A stretch of 64,000 nt of DNA from Micromonospora sp. NBC_00389 (lineage in GTDB: Bacteria > Actinomycetota > Actinomycetes > Mycobacteriales > Micromonosporaceae), in NCBI RefSeq assembly GCF_036059255.1, contig NZ_CP107947.1:3410001-3474000 (forward strand). Direction: 5' to 3'. Both the position numbers and the translations under genes were made by a program. Positions 27,710-39,643 of the stretch are shown here, in pieces. Under the pieces are notes generated by a model, which had not been told where the DNA came from, searched no databases, and worked only from the letters and a program-made list of their open reading frames with translations. Position 1 is the stretch's first letter; each line of letters begins with the position of its first letter.

Positions 27710-29065
27710 TTGTCCGATGTGCAGCTTCGGTACAACTACCGCGTCTACCCGACGCCCTCGCAGCGGGAAGCGCTGGCGCGGGCGTTCGGGTGCGCGCGGG
27801 TGGTGTACAACGACGGGCTGCGCGCACGGCAGGAAGCCCGGGAGGCCGGGCTGCCGTACATCTCCGACGGGGACCTGTCCAAGCAGGTGATCACCGAGGC
27901 GAAGAAGACTGAGGTCCGCGCCTGGCTGGGCGAGGTGTCCTCGGTGGTGCTCCAGCAGGCCCTCGCGGACCTGAACAACGCCTACCGCAGCTTCTTCGCC
28001 TCTGTCACCGGCGGGCGCAAGGGGCGCAAGGTCGCGCCGCCGCGGTTCCGGTCGCGCAAGGACAACCGGCAGGCTATCCGGTTCACCAAGAACTCCCGGT
28101 TCGCGGTGCTGGACAGCGGGCGGCTGCGCCTGCCGAAGGTCGGCGATCTGGCGGTGCGTTGGTCCCGGCAGCTTCCAGTGGACCCTTCCTCAGTGACGCT
28201 CATCAAGGATGCTGCGGGCCGGTACTTCGCCTCGTTTGTCGTGCAAACCGCCGATGAGTCGCTGCCGCCAGCCGAATCCGAGGTGGGCATCGACCTGGGC
28301 CTGACCCACTTCGCTGTCCTGTCCGACGGCACGAAGGTGGTCGCGCCGAAGTTCCTACGTCGGGCCGCCCGCAAACTGCGGCGATTGCAGCAGGATCTCT
28401 GCCGCAAGCAGCGGGGCAGCAACAACCGCACCAAGGCCGTCGTTAAGGTCGCCCGAGCTCACGAGCGGGTGGCCGACACCCGGCGAGACTGGCAGCACAA
28501 GCTCTCGACGCGGATCATCCGCGATAACCAAGCGGTGTACGTCGAGGACCTGTCCGTGAGCGGACTCGCTCGGACCCGGCTTGCCAAGAGTGTCCACGAC
28601 GCCGGGTGGGCCAGCTTCACCGCCATGTTGGAGTACAAGGCCGCCCGGTACGGGCGCACCTTCGCCCGCATCGACCGGTTCGCGCCCACGTCCCAGACGT
28701 GCTCGGTGTGCGGCCGGATCGACGGACCCAAGCCGCTGAACGTCCGGTCGTGGACCTGCCTGTGCGGGCACACCCACGACCGGGACGTCAATGCGGCCAT
28801 CAACGTGCTCGCGGCGGGACGCGCCGAGAGCCTAAACGCCTGTGGAGCGCAGGTAAGACCGGCACCCGTGCCGGCGCAGCGCCATGAAGCAGGAATCCGC
28901 TCGGGCGTTGCGCGCTGTTTCGCGCGCAGCGCGGAGGGAATCTCTACCCTTGAGGGCAGAGAGAACGTCAAGACCGGGACTTGTCCTGCTTCCAGGACAG
29001 CGGACCCGGCAGGTCGACCCGGTGCGCCTTGGCCTTCGAGTTCCAGGACCAGCGCCCGATCTTGA
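27710..29065 (+). CDS. tnpB: TnpB, IS605-type RNA-guided nuclease, stop codon lost
   Basis: Starts at TTG 27710 or GTG 27719 (MQLRYNYRVYPTPSQ). The N-terminal helical region, split RuvC and zinc ribbon are intact: catalytic Asp in VGIDLGLTHFAV, Glu in VYVEDLSV, Asp in HDRDVNAAINVL, zinc Cys in CSVCG and TCLCG. TnpB is an omega-RNA-guided DNA nuclease that helps the element persist. The normal end would be near 28832, where the second tnpB in this window has GAGAGG-TGA-AAC; here it reads GAGAGC-CTA-AAC. Translation would continue about 77 codons through the right end and out of the element, giving 451 residues instead of the usual 370-400. Confidence 0.85.
   Translation: MSDVQLRYNYRVYPTPSQREALARAFGCARVVYNDGLRARQEAREAGLPYISDGDLSKQVITEAKKTEVRAWLGEVSSVVLQQALADLNNAYRSFFASVTGGRKGRKVAPPRFRSRKDNRQAIRFTKNSRFAVLDSGRLRLPKVGDLAVRWSRQLPVDPSSVTLIKDAAGRYFASFVVQTADESLPPAESEVGIDLGLTHFAVLSDGTKVVAPKFLRRAARKLRRLQQDLCRKQRGSNNRTKAVVKVARAHERVADTRRDWQHKLSTRIIRDNQAVYVEDLSVSGLARTRLAKSVHDAGWASFTAMLEYKAARYGRTFARIDRFAPTSQTCSVCGRIDGPKPLNVRSWTCLCGHTHDRDVNAAINVLAAGRAESLNACGAQVRPAPVPAQRHEAGIRSGVARCFARSAEGISTLEGRENVKTGTCPASRTADPAGRPGAPWPSSSRTSARS
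28800..28971 (+). ncRNA. Probable omega RNA region of the first tnpB
   Basis: In IS605-type elements the guide RNA scaffold is made from the tnpB 3' end and the right end. Here that stretch includes AACGCCTGTGGAGC, the GCGCGC-rich hairpin at about 28905-28933 and the terminal hairpin, ending at TCAA (28971). The guide would be the flank from 28972 (GACCGGGACTTGTCCTGCTT). The 5' limit is approximate. Confidence 0.45.
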
Positions 29066-29147: not shown

Positions 29148-29395
29148 CGGAGGACTCCCTTCGTCACCGTTCCCTGCCGTGTCGAAACCGAACATGCCCG
29201 AACCGGCGATTTCTGAAACCCTCTTCGGGTCCGCTCTGGACAGTGGGCCGCACGCACCACGAATCTCTATCCAACAGATAGGTGTTGCGGGGCGGTAAAC
29301 GCTGGTGGAGGCGGCTCGTAACATAGTCAGGGACATAAATCTCACCTTCTGGAAGACCGTTGACCGGTCGATCCCACCGCCGGCAGCATGGGGTC

Positions 29396-29473
29396 ATGTC
29401 GCAGCGGGATGAGCTTCTCCTCACCGCTCGCGTGCACGTCGACCTGGTCCGGCACGCGAGCGCGCTCTGTTGA
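29396..29473 (+). CDS. Cysteine-type leader peptide (uORF) of the sulfonate operon
   Basis: A 25-codon ORF reading MSQRDELLLTARVHVDLVRH then ASALC and a stop. It matches the actinobacterial 'putative leader peptide' pattern LTxRxHxDLxRxxSxxC that precedes sulfur-assimilation genes, where ribosome stalling or arrest at the terminal Cys codon reports cysteine supply. It lies 131 bp upstream of the sulfonate-type binding protein. GTTGAGC, spanning the last Cys codon and stop (29469-29475), is complementary to GCTCAAC at 29524-29530, so ribosome position could switch leader structure. The mechanism here is inference. Confidence 0.8.
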   Translation: MSQRDELLLTARVHVDLVRHASALC

Positions 29474-29604
29474 GCTGACCGGTTCATCCGGCTCGGCTCC
29501 AGCACCGCACTCCCACCGCCCGCGCTCAACGCGGAGCAGCGTGCCTTCGCGCCCATCACCTGGGCGTCCTGCGCTCCCATCGTGGACAGATCAGGAGACT
29601 CCTC
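29469..29604 (+). promoter_or_regulatory. Attenuator region between leader peptide and operon
   Basis: Contains GTTGAGC (29469) pairing with GCTCAAC (29524), and further GC-rich inverted segments (GCGGAGCAGCG near 29531). The first gene's RBS is in CAGGAGACTCCTCATG. A ribosome halted at the leader's Cys/stop would cover the 5' arm. No T-run terminator is visible, so control may act through Rho or RBS access. Confidence 0.5.
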
Positions 29605-30636
29605 ATGTCCCCACCCCGTCGTGCCGTCCTGCGTACCCTCGCCACCGCCGCCGTGCTGGCCCTGGTCACCGGCACCGCCGGCTGCGGTGGCGACGCCGAG
29701 GCCGGCGCCGGACAGGCCACGGAGCTGCGCTACCAGGGCTCGGCCGGCCAGGTCACCCTCCCCGAACTCGCCGCCGACCTCGGCTACCTCGGCGACGTCC
29801 GGCTCAACTGGATCGGCAACGTCACCGGTGGCCCGCAGGACATCCAGGCCACCGCCACCGGGCAGAGCGACTTCGGCGGCGCGTTCAACGGCGCCATCGT
29901 CAAGCTCGCCGCCGCCAACGCCCCGATCACCGCCGTGGTCAGCTACTACGGCTCCGACGCCCAGAGCTTCCAGGGCTACTACGTGCTCGACGACAACCCG
30001 ATCCGCGGCCCCCGCGACCTGATCGGCAAGAAGGTCGGCATGAACACCCTCGGCGCGCACGCCGAGGCGGTGCTGAAGACCTGGCTCGCCCGCGGCCGGC
30101 TCACCCCGGCCGAGATCAAGCAGGTCGAGCTGGTCGCCCTGCCGCCGGTCAACACCGAACAGTCGCTGCGCCAGAAGCAGATCGACGTCGCGGTGCTCGG
30201 CGGGGTGATCCGGGACAAGGCGATCGCCAGTGGCGGCATCCGTACCGTCTTCACCGACCACGAACTGCTCGGCGCGTTCAGCGCCGGCACCTACGTCTTC
30301 CGTGACGACTTCATCAAGCGCAACCCGGACACCGTCAAGGCGTTCGTCACCGGGGTCGGCAAGGCCATCGAGTGGGCCCGCACCCAGCCGCGGGAGACCG
30401 TGGTCGCCCGGATGCGGGACATCATCGCCAAGCGTGGCCGCAACGAGGACCCGTCGCTGGTCGCGTACTGGAAGAGCAGCGGCGTCGCCGGTCGCGGCGG
30501 GGTGATCGGCGAGCAGGAGTTCGGCACCTGGATCGACTGGCTCGCCGCCGAGGGCGAGCTCAAGGGCGACCGGCCGAAGCCCGCCGACATCTACACCAAC
30601 CGGTTCAACCCCTTCGTGGACGGGGGCGGTGCGTGA
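29605..30636 (+). CDS. Sulfonate/taurine-type ABC substrate-binding lipoprotein
   Basis: 343 residues with a lipoprotein signal (RRAVLRTLATAAVLALVTGT, lipobox TAGCGG). The mature domain is of the SsuA/TauA/ThiY NMT1-like fold: GQSDFGGAFNGAIVKLAAAN, DLIGKKVGMNTLGAHAEAVL, WLARGRLTPAEIK. It should bind an organosulfonate or related sulfur compound outside the membrane. First structural gene behind the Cys leader. Its stop overlaps the ATPase start (GTGA). Confidence 0.88.
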   Translation: MSPPRRAVLRTLATAAVLALVTGTAGCGGDAEAGAGQATELRYQGSAGQVTLPELAADLGYLGDVRLNWIGNVTGGPQDIQATATGQSDFGGAFNGAIVKLAAANAPITAVVSYYGSDAQSFQGYYVLDDNPIRGPRDLIGKKVGMNTLGAHAEAVLKTWLARGRLTPAEIKQVELVALPPVNTEQSLRQKQIDVAVLGGVIRDKAIASGGIRTVFTDHELLGAFSAGTYVFRDDFIKRNPDTVKAFVTGVGKAIEWARTQPRETVVARMRDIIAKRGRNEDPSLVAYWKSSGVAGRGGVIGEQEFGTWIDWLAAEGELKGDRPKPADIYTNRFNPFVDGGGA

Positions 30637-31562
30637 GCACCGACAAGATCCTCTTCGACCAGGTGAGCAAGACCTTCCCGGTCCGCGCCACCCGGCGTGG
30701 CGCCGCGGGCGCGGTCACCGCGCTGGACCGGGTGACCCTCGGGGTACGCCCCGGCGAGTTCCTGGTCGTCGTCGGCCCGAGCGGCTGCGGCAAGTCCACC
30801 CTGCTCGACCTGCTCGGCGGGCTCACCGCGCCGACCGGCGGGCAGGTGCTGGTCGACGGCCGCCCGGTCACCGGCCCCGGCCTGGACCGGGGCATCGTCT
30901 TCCAGCAGTACGCGCTGCTGCCCTGGCGCACCGCCGCCGGCAACGTCGCGTTCGGGCTGGAGGCCAAGGGGGTGCCCCGGGCCGAACGCGCCGACCTGAT
31001 CGACCACCACCTGGACCTGGTGGGCCTGCGCGGCTTCGCGGACCGCTACCCGCACGAGCTGTCCGGCGGAATGAAGCAGCGCGTCGCCATCGCCCGCAGC
31101 CTCGCCTACGACCCGGACGTGCTGCTGATGGACGAGCCGTTCGCCGCGCTGGACGCGCAGACCCGCGACTCGTTGCAGGACGAACTGGTGCGGATCTGGG
31201 CCCGCACCGGCAAGACCATCGTGTTCATCACCCACGGCATCGACGAGGCCGTGCACCTCGGCCAGCGGGTGGCGGTGCTGACCTCCCGGCCCGGGCGGGT
31301 CAAGGAGGTCATCGACATCGACCTCGGCGACCGGGACGCCGTCGAGGACGTCCGCTCCACCGACGCGTTCCGCCACCACCGGCACCAGATCTGGACGCTG
31401 CTACGCGACGAGGTGCGCGCCGCCCAGGCCGCCGAAGGCGCCGCCGCCAGCCGCACCGCCCACACCGGAGCAGCCGGTGGTCGTACCCCTGCCGTGGCCG
31501 GAGCCGACGCGCAGCGTGCGGCACCGGCGGCGACCCGTACCGAGGAGGCCCGCGTTGGTTGA
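30633..31562 (+). CDS. ABC transporter ATPase, SsuB/TauB type
   Basis: The GTG at 30633 overlaps the preceding stop and gives 309 residues; the longer open frame upstream is not coding. Walker A GPSGCGKST, Q-loop IVFQQYALLPWRT, signature ELSGGMKQRVAIARSLAYDP, Walker B VLLMDEPFAALD, H-loop FITHGIDEAV. It energises uptake with the adjacent permease. The last 50 residues are a low-complexity Ala tail that overlaps the permease start region. Confidence 0.93.
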   Translation: MSTDKILFDQVSKTFPVRATRRGAAGAVTALDRVTLGVRPGEFLVVVGPSGCGKSTLLDLLGGLTAPTGGQVLVDGRPVTGPGLDRGIVFQQYALLPWRTAAGNVAFGLEAKGVPRAERADLIDHHLDLVGLRGFADRYPHELSGGMKQRVAIARSLAYDPDVLLMDEPFAALDAQTRDSLQDELVRIWARTGKTIVFITHGIDEAVHLGQRVAVLTSRPGRVKEVIDIDLGDRDAVEDVRSTDAFRHHRHQIWTLLRDEVRAAQAAEGAAASRTAHTGAAGGRTPAVAGADAQRAAPAATRTEEARVG

Positions 31563-32418
31563 CATCGCCGAACGTCCAACCCGGCTGGAGGCGCCACCCG
31601 CCGTGCCCGGCGCGGCGGCCGATCCCGCCCCGCCCGGCCTGGCCGGTCGGCTGCTCGGCGCGGGCGGGAGGGTGCTGCACCGCACCGTCGCGATTGCCGC
31701 GCTGGCCGCGATCTGGGAGGGCGCACCCCGGCTCGGGCTGGTGGACCGGGTCTTCCTGCCCCCGCTGTCCGAGGTGCTGGTGGCCTGGTGGGAGCTGCTG
31801 CGCAGCGGGCAGCTCGCCGAGCACGTCGGGGCGAGCCTGACCCGGTCGCTGGCTGGGCTCGGCCTGGCCGTGCTCACCGCCATCCCGCTCGGGCTGCTGA
31901 TCGGCTGGTACCGGCCGCTCGCCGAGCTGCTCAGCCCGCTGCTGGAGGTGTTCCGCAACACCGCCGCGCTGGCGCTGCTACCGGTCTTCGTGCTCATCCT
32001 CGGCCTGGGGGAGACCTCCAAGATCGCGTTGGTGCTGTACGCCTGCTCCTGGCCGATCCTGCTGAACACCATCGCCGGGGTGAAGGGCGTCGACCCGCTG
32101 CTGATCCGGTCGGCCCGCTCGATGGGGCTCAACCACCTGCGGCTGTTCCAGAAGGTGATCCTGCCGGCTGCGGTGCCGACCATCTTCACCGGCATCCGAC
32201 TGGCCGGGGCGTACTCGATCCTGGTGCTGGTCGCGGCCGAGATGGTCGGCGCGAAGGCCGGCCTTGGCTACCTCATCAACTACGCGCAGTACAACTTCGC
32301 GATCCCCGACATGTACTCCGGGATCATCACGATCTCCGCCATCGGTCTGGTCGTCAACCAGCTCCTCGTCGCCCTGGAACGCCGCTTCTCCACCTGGCGC
32401 GTCGACGTCTCCGCCTGA
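31555..32418 (+). CDS. ABC transporter permease, SsuC/TauC type
   Basis: TTG start preceded by GAGGAGG, overlapping the ATPase gene by 8 bp; 287 residues. Six membrane helices with the EAA-like loop LIRSARSMGLNHLRLFQKVI. Forms the channel of the sulfonate-type importer with the two preceding gene products. A Pro/Ala-rich N-terminal tail of about 40 residues precedes helix 1. Confidence 0.92.
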   Translation: MVDIAERPTRLEAPPAVPGAAADPAPPGLAGRLLGAGGRVLHRTVAIAALAAIWEGAPRLGLVDRVFLPPLSEVLVAWWELLRSGQLAEHVGASLTRSLAGLGLAVLTAIPLGLLIGWYRPLAELLSPLLEVFRNTAALALLPVFVLILGLGETSKIALVLYACSWPILLNTIAGVKGVDPLLIRSARSMGLNHLRLFQKVILPAAVPTIFTGIRLAGAYSILVLVAAEMVGAKAGLGYLINYAQYNFAIPDMYSGIITISAIGLVVNQLLVALERRFSTWRVDVSA

Positions 32419-32431
32419 GAGGACACCCGCA

Positions 32432-33766
32432 ATGACCCGCACCCTGCACCTCAACGCGTTCCTGATGGGCGTCGGCCACCACGAGGCCGCCTGGCGGCAC
32501 CCCCGCACCGACCCGCGCCGGGTGACCGACGTGCGGCATTTCCAGGAACTGGCCCGCATCGCCGAGCGTGGCACCCTCGACTCGCTCTTCCTCGCCGACG
32601 GGCTCTCGGTCGGGCCGAACCCCCGGCACAACATCCACAGCGTCTTCGAACCGCTGACCCTGCTCGCCTCGCTGGCCGCGGTGACCGAACACATCGGTCT
32701 CATCGCGACCGTCTCCACCACCTACAACGAGCCGTTCCACATCGCCCGCAAGTTCGCCTCACTGGACCACCTCAGCAGCGGTCGAGCCGGCTGGAACATC
32801 GTCACCTCCGCCCAGGAGCGCGAGGCGGTCAACTTCAACCGGGACAGCCACCCCGCACACGCCGACCGGTACCGGCGGGCCGCCGAGTTCGTCGACGTGG
32901 CGATCAAGCTCTGGGACAGCTGGGAGGACGACGCGCTGGTCTTCGACACCGCGGCCGGGGTGATCGCCGACACTGACCGGGTGCACGAGGTGGCCCATCG
33001 CGGACCGGAGTTCCAGGTCCGGGGTCCGCTGAACATCCCCCGTGGGCCGCAGGGCCGGCCGCTGCTGGTGCAGGCCGGCTCGTCATCGGACGGGATCGGA
33101 TTCGCCGCCCGGTACGCCGAAGCGGTCTTCACCGCCCAGCAGACCCTCGCCGACGGCCAGAGCTTCTACGCCGAGCTGCGGCGGCAGGTCACCGCGGCCG
33201 GCCGGGACCCCGACCTCGTGAAGGTCCTGCCCGGCATCGCGCCGGTGATCGGCGGCACCGAGGCCGAGGCGCGGGCGCTCGCCGCCGAACTGGAGGAGCT
33301 GATCGTCCCCGACTACGCCCTCGCCCAGCTCTCCGGCATGCTCGGCATCGACCTGATCGGCCTGCCGCTGGACGGGCCGCTGCCGGAGCTGCCGGACGCC
33401 GACACCGTGCAGGCCCACCAGAGCCGCTACCAGCTCGTCACCGAGCTGGCCCGCCGCGAACAACTCACCATCCGGCAGTTGATCGGCCGGCTCGGTGCTG
33501 GCCGGGGCCACCGGGTGGTCGCCGGCACCCCGGAGCAGATCGCCGACCAGATCGAGCTGTGGTTCACCCGGGGCGCCGCGGACGGCTTCAACATCATGCC
33601 GCCGCACCTGCCCGGCGGGCTGGCCGACTTCGTCGACCACGTGGTGCCGGTGCTGCGCGCCCGTCGCCTGTTCCGCAGCGAGTACACCGGCCGGACCCTG
33701 CGCGAGCACTACGGCCTGCCCCGACCGGCCAGCTCGTACGCCGCGCCGGCGCTGGTGCCGGCGTGA
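32432..33766 (+). CDS. FMN-dependent LLM-class monooxygenase, NtaA/SnaA/DszA type
   Basis: ATG 13 bp after the permease stop, GAGAGGA upstream; 444 residues, typical for the NtaA/SnaA/SoxA subfamily. Family landmarks include LHLNAFLMGVGHHEAAWRHP, NPRHNIHSVFEPLTLLASLA, SGRAGWNIVTSA, PLLVQAGSSSDGI, GTPEQIADQIELWF and DGFNIMPPHLPGG. It should use reduced FMN and O2 to cleave a C-S or C-N bond in the imported compound. The paired flavin reductase supplies FMNH2. The Cys leader supports a sulfur substrate such as a sulfonate or sulfone. Confidence 0.9.
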   Translation: MTRTLHLNAFLMGVGHHEAAWRHPRTDPRRVTDVRHFQELARIAERGTLDSLFLADGLSVGPNPRHNIHSVFEPLTLLASLAAVTEHIGLIATVSTTYNEPFHIARKFASLDHLSSGRAGWNIVTSAQEREAVNFNRDSHPAHADRYRRAAEFVDVAIKLWDSWEDDALVFDTAAGVIADTDRVHEVAHRGPEFQVRGPLNIPRGPQGRPLLVQAGSSSDGIGFAARYAEAVFTAQQTLADGQSFYAELRRQVTAAGRDPDLVKVLPGIAPVIGGTEAEARALAAELEELIVPDYALAQLSGMLGIDLIGLPLDGPLPELPDADTVQAHQSRYQLVTELARREQLTIRQLIGRLGAGRGHRVVAGTPEQIADQIELWFTRGAADGFNIMPPHLPGGLADFVDHVVPVLRARRLFRSEYTGRTLREHYGLPRPASSYAAPALVPA

Positions 33767-34332
33767 CCACCGTGGAACGTCCGCAGACGGACGCCGCCGA
33801 GCTGCGGCCGGTGGACCGGGACCTGTTCCGCGCGTTGCTGCGCCGGCAGGCCACCAGCGTCACCGTGGTCACCGCGGTGGCGCGGGCCACCGACCCGGCC
33901 TGCCTGGGCGGGATCGGCGCGCCGATCCGGGCCGGATTCACCGCCACCTCGTTCACCTCGGTGTCGCTGGACCCACCGCTGGTCTCGTTCTGCCTCGGGG
34001 TCGACTCGTCGAGCTGGCCGGTGCTGGCCCGGGCCGAGCACGTCGCGGTACACCTGCTGGCCGCCGGGCAGCGGGAGGCCGCCCGGGTCTTCGCCACCAG
34101 CGGCATCGACCGGTTCGCCGCGTACCCGGACTGGACCGCCGGGCCGTTCGGGGTGCCGCTGCTGACCGGAGTGCTGGCCCGGCTGCTCTGCCGGGTGGTG
34201 CACCGGGTGCCGGCCGGCGACCACACGCTCGTGATCGCCGAACCGCTGGCGCTGGGCGACGGCGGCGACGGCCCGCCACTGGTGCACCACCAGGGCGGCT
34301 ACACCACGGCCATCCCGCCGGTGCCGGCGTGA
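33763..34332 (+). CDS. Flavin reductase (DIM6/NTAB-like) supplying FMNH2
   Basis: GTG start overlapping the monooxygenase stop (GTGA); 189 residues. Split-barrel flavin reductase signature: ATSVTVVTAVA, AGFTATSFTSVSLDPPLVSF, VHLLAAGQREAARVF, HHQGGYTTA. Reduces FMN with NAD(P)H for the two-component monooxygenase upstream. Its last codons lie in a 12-bp sequence, GTGCCGGCGTGA, that recurs 80 bp downstream at the next gene's start. Confidence 0.9.
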   Translation: MTTVERPQTDAAELRPVDRDLFRALLRRQATSVTVVTAVARATDPACLGGIGAPIRAGFTATSFTSVSLDPPLVSFCLGVDSSSWPVLARAEHVAVHLLAAGQREAARVFATSGIDRFAAYPDWTAGPFGVPLLTGVLARLLCRVVHRVPAGDHTLVIAEPLALGDGGDGPPLVHHQGGYTTAIPPVPA

Positions 34333-34412
34333 GCGAGCGCAGCGAGCGAACCATTGGGCACAGCAGCGTGGCGCGTCGCGCCGGCACACAGCGAAGCGGA
34401 GTGCCGGCGTGA
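34321..34412. repeat. 80-bp repeat insertion flanked by 12-bp direct duplication
   Basis: GTGCCGGCGTGA occurs at 34321-34332 and again at 34401-34412. Between them is GAGCGAGCGCAGCGAGCGAA, a motif I know as a dispersed actinobacterial intergenic repeat, plus GCGCCGGCAC, the near-complement of the flank. Removing one copy plus the filler restores a stop/start overlap (GTGA) like those elsewhere in this operon. Confidence 0.65.
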
Positions 34413-35020
34413 CTGCACCCGCTCCGACCGACCTGCTCGCGCTGGACCGGGCCGCCCAGGACCTGCTGTTCCGGGCGGCCCGCACGGCCAACACGTTCAC
34501 CGACGAGCCGGTCACCGACGCCCAGGTCACGGCGATCCACGACCTGATCCGGTACGGGCCGACCGCGTTCAACGGCCAGCCGCTGCGGGTGCTGCTGCTC
34601 CGCTCGGCGGCGGCCCGGGCCCGGCTGCTGCCGTACCTCTCGTCGGGCAACCGGGCGAAGACGGCCACCGCCCCGCTGGTGGCCGTGCTCGCCGCCGACG
34701 TGGACTTCCACGATCGGCTGCCCGAGCTGTTCCCGCACCGCCCGCAGGCCCGGGACTGGTTGACCGACCGGGCGGCGCGGGCCGAGCAGGCACGGCTCAA
34801 CGCGACCCTCCAGATCGGCTACCTGCTGGTCGGCGTACGCGCGGCCGGGCTCGCCGCCGGCCCGATGGCCGGGTTCGACGCGGCTGGTGTGACCCGGGAG
34901 TTCTTCCCGGACGGCCGGCACGAGACGCTGCTGCTGATGAACGTGGGCCGCCCCGGCCCCGACGCCTGGCACGACCGCCTGCCCCGGCTGGACGCGACGG
35001 AGGTGATCAGCATCCGGTGA
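34409..35020 (+). CDS. RutE-like nitroreductase-family oxidoreductase
   Basis: 203 residues. FMN-binding nitroreductase fold of the malonic-semialdehyde-reductase (RutE/HadB) group: FTDEPVTDAQVTAIHDLIRY, GPTAFNGQPLRVLLL, NATLQIGYLLVGVRAAGLAA, MAGFDAAGVTREFFPDG. In this operon it could reduce an aldehyde released by the monooxygenase, as RutE does for uracil breakdown (inference). GTG start. Separated from the flavin reductase by an 80-bp repeat. Confidence 0.85.
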   Translation: MTAPAPTDLLALDRAAQDLLFRAARTANTFTDEPVTDAQVTAIHDLIRYGPTAFNGQPLRVLLLRSAAARARLLPYLSSGNRAKTATAPLVAVLAADVDFHDRLPELFPHRPQARDWLTDRAARAEQARLNATLQIGYLLVGVRAAGLAAGPMAGFDAAGVTREFFPDGRHETLLLMNVGRPGPDAWHDRLPRLDATEVISIR

Positions 35021-39571: not shown

Positions 39572-39643
39572 GGGCGATTAGCTCAGTGGGAGAGCGCTTC
39601 GTTCACACCGAAGAGGTCGCTGGTTCGATACCAGCATCGCCCA
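39572..39643 (+). tRNA. tRNA-Val(CAC)
   Basis: Acceptor stem GGGCGAT/ATCGCCC with A discriminator, D-loop AGCTCAGTGGGAGAGC, anticodon arm CTTCG-TTCACAC-CGAAG with anticodon CAC, and T-loop GGTTCGATACC. CCA is not encoded. The 3' end adjoins a phage-type integrase, a common integration site. Confidence 0.96.

Follow-up and report, generated by a model that had tools for sequence, protein, structure and literature searches.

Introduction

Amino-acid attenuators usually depend on runs of codons. For cysteine, candidate leaders in mycobacteria, together with the suggestion that Rho takes part, date from 2005 (Seliverstov 2005; PMC1262725), cysteine attenuation has been shown experimentally in M. 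smegmatis (Canestrari 2020, as reported in papers that cite it), and leaderless upstream ORFs with cysteine codons have been found to carry ribosomes (PMC4633059). Here, we investigated a leader in a 64,000-nucleotide stretch of the genome of Micromonospora sp. NBC_00389 (hereafter the window; genome size 7.87 Mb). Like the mycobacterial polycysteine attenuators (NF042933, Ms5788A; NF042936, Ms4527A), as far as their available descriptions go, it is a short, possibly leaderless, cysteine-containing ORF before sulfur genes, but it has one Cys codon where those leaders have a run. The leaders compared in 2005 are similar in that their Cys codons lie close to the stop, no conserved terminator accompanies them and Rho was suggested, but they contain Cys runs and precede cys operons and cbs, and the available parts of that study do not mention the operon described here (PMC1262725). 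The uORFC-8-2 leader of Rhodobacterales likewise places Cys codons ahead of a cysteine-related gene, cysS, although its codons are two in tandem and mostly UGC, and its accessible description includes an intrinsic terminator (PMC8632094). A reannotation of S. lividans includes eight leader peptides, none named for cysteine in the portion available (PMC8079986).

The kind of leader found here is therefore already known, both from the mycobacterial cysteine attenuators and from family NF042934, whose complete 19-position model it matches. The family entry differs from what we describe in that it is named only 'putative leader peptide', and a protein model can encode neither a bias toward UGU nor a downstream pairing. 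Among the literature matches listed, no paper treated this leader before this operon and none a UGU preference in these leaders, although Canestrari 2020 may cover part of either subject. Our main reading, to which we assign a probability of roughly 0.72, is that the ORF is a cysteine-sensing leader of the NF042934 family that controls the downstream organosulfur uptake and oxygenation operon. The leader of the window is a single-Cys member of a known family, and the most noteworthy parts of the analysis are the UGU codon rule and a predicted start-codon lock specific to one clade.

Results

A 25-codon ORF matches a catalogued leader family

The leader ORF, MSQRDELLLTARVHVDLVRHASALC followed by a stop, occupies 29396..29473 on the plus strand, with its ATG at 29396, a length of 25 codons and a TGA stop at 29471-29473. 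Its conserved last Cys codon, TGT at 29468..29470 (plus strand), is the proposed sensing codon. The initial annotation had recognized from the letters alone a tiny ORF that ends in Cys and stop, carries a leader motif and lies 131 bp before an operon. These coordinates hold: the ORF scored 31.9 bits against NCBIfam model NF042934 (cis_reg_atten, 'putative leader peptide'; cut-off 27), aligning to profile positions 1-19 of 19, and 131 nt separate its stop from the ATG at 29605 of an SsuA-like binding-protein gene. The motif was thus correctly read, though of a kind already catalogued. Judged by sequence comparison, the ORF is genuine and no chance occurrence, since it passed the NF042934 cut-off and since both the spacing of an upstream TTGACC and the TGT codon are constant in 42 of 42 distinct loci. 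It is not a member of NF042933 (Ms5788A; 14 bits, cut-off 45), a true member of which lies elsewhere in the same genome (63.6 bits against the same cut-off). Because NF042934 sits in NCBIfam, current NCBI annotation could name the leader; one plasmid copy of it has no PGAP feature, in a gene table that is incomplete.

The downstream genes form a sulfonate-type importer and monooxygenase operon

All genes of the operon lie on the plus strand. A block, GTGGACAGATCAGGAG (29582..29597), which is well conserved by eye and includes a Shine-Dalgarno sequence, AGGAG, at 29593-29597, precedes the gene for an SsuA-like, NMT1-type solute-binding lipoprotein (29605..30636; PF09084, 79 bits; TIGR01728, 64.6 bits, below its cut-off). 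Next come an ABC ATPase with a GTG start (30633..31562; PF00005) and an ABC permease of uncertain start (31477..32418; PF00528), which fell below the cut-offs of all the SaoP/TauC/SsuC-type models. An NtaA/DmoA-family FMN-dependent monooxygenase (32432..33766; TIGR03860, 582 bits, cut-off 279.7) and a flavin reductase (33763..34332; PF01613, 127 bits) complete a gene set that agrees with the sulfonate-type importer/monooxygenase operon named at the outset. From its spacing we infer that a nitroreductase-family gene (34409..35020; best model NF003768) is co-transcribed with these genes.

The leader is conserved upstream of orthologous operons

The initial annotation had made its proposal depend on orthologous leaders keeping the small ORF and its terminal Cys, and both were found to be conserved. 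We used the binding protein as the query and then inspected the DNA upstream of each hit, so that the leader itself played no part in finding the loci. The binding protein was present in 31 of the 121 genomes of the relatives set, own genome counted, and a scan of named genomes kept 80 loci from 229 relatives. By a simple motif score, a leader preceded 84 of 110 orthologous loci, or 71 of 97 distinct upstream stretches (two loci were counted twice); the other 26 had none by this score. All 58 fetched Micromonospora loci, own locus counted, carry the leader before the orthologous operon. Among them 44 are distinct, 42 of these being of the window's (main) type, and the spacer between leader and gene spans 104-212 nt among the main-type relatives listed. 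The leader also precedes the orthologue in Streptomyces, Streptantibioticus, Kitasatospora, Lentzea, Nonomuraea, Sinosporangium and Thermoactinospora. None was detected by motif score at the Paenibacillus, Ectobacillus, Rhodococcus, Planosporangium and Wenjunlia loci or in one Streptomyces group, two members of which retain a degenerate leader. By this tally, the leader is kept across several actinobacterial groups besides Micromonospora.

Some variation was observed within the genus and among orthologous leaders. The stop directly after Cys has been lost in 2 of the 42 Micromonospora orthologues (L018, L020), extending the leader by a few codons, and in three orthologous leaders (L010, L013, L038) an extra Cys codon, TGC, replaces Arg at motif position 4. 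Where the full flank was available, ATPase and permease genes accompanied 48 of 48 leader-bearing loci and the monooxygenase 43 of 48, and at leaderless loci the counts were 22/22, 22/22 and 20/22, respectively, with flanks that frequently stop inside or ahead of the later genes.

Constant promoter-like hexamers suggest a leaderless mRNA

A candidate -35 element, TTGACC (29360..29365, plus strand), lies 36 nt before the leader ATG, and exactly this distance recurs at all 42 distinct Micromonospora loci of the main type. After an 18-nt spacer follows a candidate -10 element, CAGCAT (29384..29389, plus strand), six bases 5' of the ATG; the hexamer reads CAGCAT in 37 of the same loci, CAACAT in 3 and CACCAT in 2. 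Since both hexamers hold constant places before the ATG, the arrangement suggests that the RNA starts at or beside the ATG, i.e. that the mRNA is leaderless. A strict consensus promoter scan of the leader region returned no promoter. Across the NF042934 family, TTGAC stands 35-37 nt before the ATG in 17 of 84 leaders.

The leader family is linked to sulfur-assimilation genes

At E<=0.01, NF042934 had matches in 118 of the 121 relatives, 112 of them above cut-off, and no match in the 14 control genomes. An evenly drawn phylum sample yielded matches in 15 out of 198 genomes, from 6 of the 148 genera (E<=0.001), and the family is therefore not phylum-wide; seven genomes of this sample, which were taken for Streptomyces, had 4 to 11 matches each. 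From the relatives-set search, 60 family places among the matches listed were fetched, 55 outside the genus and 5 inside it. The even sample gave 28 new loci, of which 18 were used (four had been fetched otherwise and six were below cut-off), and some below-cut-off places still joined the leader set by another route. Downstream families were assigned for 46 of 65 collected proteins, the genes having been chosen by a codon-composition rule that may have taken a wrong frame: rhodanese (10), sulfite/nitrite reductase (9), ABC permease (6), APS kinase (3), PAPS reductase (2), TauE (2), serine acetyltransferase (2) and others.

The window's genome contains six NF042934 matches, three of them above cut-off. 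Of the five besides the present leader, two precede genes for a rhodanese and for a sulfite/nitrite reductase; the others lie before genes encoding a YeiH-type transporter (the assigning model scored below its cut-off), a binding protein of the amino-acid type and an M14 carboxypeptidase-like protein. The reductase leader is sub-threshold (E 0.3), and 6 of the 14 control genomes also match at E<=1, none above cut-off, so that its support comes from its genomic place. The leader before the M14 gene (L002; G000:C1:7578287-7578343, minus strand) is above cut-off, and that gene has no obvious sulfur role. From the genes that its members precede, the family is linked to sulfur assimilation, and the operon in the window is likely under cysteine-responsive control via its leader.

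The last cysteine codon is nearly always UGU

The last conserved Cys codon was TGT in 81 of 84 distinct family peptides and TGC in 3, compared with TGT in 17 of 74 of the other Cys codons of the same leaders (Fisher p 1.2e-23, uncorrected for kinship). The 84 distinct 17-residue peptides came from 119 loci, namely 65 plus 54 of a further 58, four having been dropped because no Cys fell at motif position 17 as placed. Two of these, L219 and L223 of the Streptomyces set, truly lack the last Cys and have one four residues earlier instead; in the other two, L222 and L224, motif placement failed. Background usage of TGT was 10 of 144 Cys codons in downstream genes and 9 of 56 in genes of the window. 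The synteny-anchored leaders, which represent one orthologous locus type, had TGT at 113 of 113 loci (31 of 31 distinct peptides). That tally omits, except for L256-L262, a later fetch of 41 loci, in which a leader was present at 24, every one with TGT; the leaders of L247 and L260 were found additionally.

A protein model is blind to codons and therefore cannot create such a bias. Third bases A or T are also raised in the codons for R4 (0.37) and D8 (0.25), indicating that codon bias is partly relaxed in leader ORFs. UGU is expected to be decoded by wobble by the only Cys tRNA. We read the TGT bias as probable selection on the decoding of the last Cys codon, and the spelling of the sensing codon hints at the mode of action. 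A helix within the leader was considered as the cause of the T in UGU and was dropped, as no covariation was seen.

Predicted pairing of the leader end with the downstream start is clade-specific

In most of the fetched Streptosporangiaceae loci (L256-L309, L066-L078), the leader end TGATC(A/G)CG(A/G), which begins with the stop, is complementary to the binding-protein start (T/C)CGTGATCA. Over 31 loci (17 distinct) with spacers of 40-266 nt, pairing of the stop and the six bases behind it with the start region averages 8.5 of 9 positions, against 3.4 in shuffled sequences. Since starts were located by GTGATCA or GTGACCA, selection accounts for part of the core match on the start side; it did not act on the leader side or on the flanking pair. 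At this ninth, flanking position, 9 of the 17 distinct loci have A-U, 4 have G-C and 4 lack a pair, and one inner pair alternates between A-U and G-U. The count took 31 of 37 loci, leaving out L260 (leader missed), L307 (no leader found) and L067, L287, L297 and L305, which are without the searched start motif. RNAduplex pairing of leader end and start gave a modest mean z of -1.81 in Streptosporangiaceae (n = 31), 0.30 in Micromonospora (n = 42) and 0.01 in Streptomyces (n = 15, after 2 of 17 loci without a recognized start were dropped). Pairing in the latter two groups was nothing beyond chance; on these predictions, the start-codon lock is clade-specific.

In Micromonospora, the Shine-Dalgarno sequence is predicted to be mostly paired (mean unpaired 0.17; n = 42), and the share of it paired to the leader ranges from 0.00 to 0.97 across loci. 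Its sequestration by the leader body was tried and rejected, as the mean z was -0.61 and the partner inconsistent, under a crude 'stalled' model that masked the whole leader. A search of Micromonospora for a conserved sequestering or terminator structure found none. By base composition, the spacer at 29474..29592 (plus strand) is C-rich and G-poor (C 0.46 and G 0.275 in its first 80 nt) and is a possible Rho loading region; such a spacer is compatible with Rho without being diagnostic of it.

Proposed mechanism and alternatives

The steps of our proposal that are visible in the sequences are a conserved leader with one conserved Cys, apparent selection for UGU, linkage to the operon and the family-wide linkage to sulfur genes. 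The mRNA would begin at the leader ATG. A ribosome well supplied with Cys-tRNA would pass UGU, terminate and leave, and expression of the operon would stay low. Under a shortage of Cys-tRNA, the ribosome would wait at UGU, a rare codon expected to be wobble-read, and its footprint would cover the stop codon and the next nucleotides, switching the operon on. In Streptosporangiaceae, the covered bases would otherwise pair with the downstream start codon, and in Micromonospora the output may lie in Rho-dependent termination within the C-rich spacer, or else in another sequestration of the ribosome-binding site. The sensor looks conserved while the output RNA structure varies by clade.

How a waiting ribosome would act on the Micromonospora operon admits more than one answer. 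Rho-dependent attenuation, in which the spacer would be exposed to Rho after termination and hidden by the waiting ribosome, has in our estimate somewhat less than an even chance. In 83 of 84 family leaders, the 80 nt that follow the stop contain more C than G; no intrinsic terminator lies in 29250-29650; and the comparative study of 2005 suggested Rho for mycobacterial cys leaders from a prediction given there as 'rather weak' (PMC1262725). On the other hand, C also exceeds G in 10 of 15 control regions, which were ordinary upstream stretches from the window, the 80-nt interval may enter the next gene where the spacer is short, and the Streptosporangiaceae pairing favours translational control. 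The initial annotation had instead proposed a direct switch by ribosome position, in which GTTGAGC, overlapping the Cys and stop codons (29469..29475, plus strand), pairs with GCTCAAC (29524..29530, plus strand). The complementarity is present here, with seven perfect pairs. When this spacer was shuffled, 0.5% of the shuffles contained GCTCAAC exactly and 17% contained some partner matching at 7 of 7 positions if G-U pairs count; a partner of the latter sort is found somewhere in the spacer at 17 of 42 loci, against 5.1 expected. The 5' arm was picked after looking at the sequence, however, and the excess of partners comes mainly from near relatives. Elsewhere the partner is gone although the 5' arm stays: of the 42 distinct Micromonospora loci, 40 retain GTTGAGC and only 8 have an exact GCTCAAC, and no compensating change was seen in the alignment of relatives. 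The pairing was rejected as not conserved, and we regard such a switch as quite improbable. The Streptosporangiaceae lock has a competing explanation of its own, since TGATCA is its own reverse complement, which would make the two sites, one on the stop of the leader and one on the start of the downstream gene, look alike if they were protein-binding DNA sites with no RNA pair, and since the core match at the starts reflects the motifs by which these were recognized. The covariation of the unselected flanking pair, the change of the inner pair from A-U to G-U, the variable spacing and the position of both sites on stop and start codons all argue against DNA sites, which we consider unlikely.

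The sensing step also bears on how much of the peptide matters. Starvation at a codon needs none of the other residues, yet in 60 leaders sampled with the protein model, R4, D8 and R11 never change (60 of 60 each), while their codons vary. In the synteny set of 31 distinct peptides, picked by motif score (6 of 10 or more) to which these residues themselves contribute, S14 and C17 are present in 31, D8, H6 and V7 in 30, R4 in 24 and R11 in 21. Conservation in excess of what starvation attenuation requires keeps nascent-peptide arrest under consideration, with leader residues slowing the ribosome in the exit tunnel and UGU, or bound cysteine or another metabolite, governing release as in TnaC. 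In TnaC-type arrest leaders, too, a conserved peptide ends beside the stop with C-rich RNA behind it, although we know of no sequence common to them and this leader. The reuse of one peptide ahead of unrelated genes also speaks for arrest, but both residue sets were pre-selected, R11 is replaced by H in 10 and R4 by C in 7 of the 31 peptides, and the peptide is without a known arrest motif, so that we hold arrest to be possible but doubtful. Short leader genes have also been proposed to boost downstream translation (PMC4833913), and this leader might merely bring ribosomes to the operon by translation coupling or reinitiation, with no cysteine sensing. Given spacers of 131 nt here and 104-212 nt in main-type relatives, the strong bias on a single UGU codon and the conserved peptide residues, we find that explanation highly improbable.

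Returning to the cysteine-sensing leader, a wider and speculative version, which we offer tentatively and at well under even odds, is that NF042934 leaders form a multi-family actinobacterial regulon of nascent-peptide switches with UGU as the cysteine gate and clade-specific RNA outputs. A peptide of about the form R-x-H-V-D-L-x-R-x-x-S-x-x-C would position the ribosome and one near-obligatory UGU would gate it; slower wobble decoding of UGU, but not of UGC, would let a single Cys codon sense Cys-tRNA; and the same sensor would serve ahead of many sulfur genes, with the RNA output evolving separately in each clade. Several actinobacterial families keep one codon in one spelling, also ahead of unrelated genes, and single-codon sensing of amino-acid supply becomes directly testable through UGU versus UGC. 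The leader further suggests that cysteine supply may control the scavenging of organosulfur compounds in Micromonospora and Streptomyces, and a UGU-marked leader could serve as a simple sequence mark for further sulfur-regulated genes.

Other features of the region

An inverted repeat with 11-bp arms lies inside the leader (5' arm 29425..29435, 3' arm 29452..29462, plus strand; from sequence and predicted folds), but the hairpin was rejected because, despite its 11 pairs, its fold z-score of -1.41 is weak. Against the Rfam 15 covariance models, the region gave only a P13 match at chance level (E 0.79), and no tandem repeats were present in the stretches scanned. Upstream, a TnpB-family RNA-guided nuclease ORF (27710-29065; NF040570, 324 bits) ends ~330 nt before the leader. 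Elsewhere in the window, a tRNA gene lies at 39572-39643 on the plus strand.
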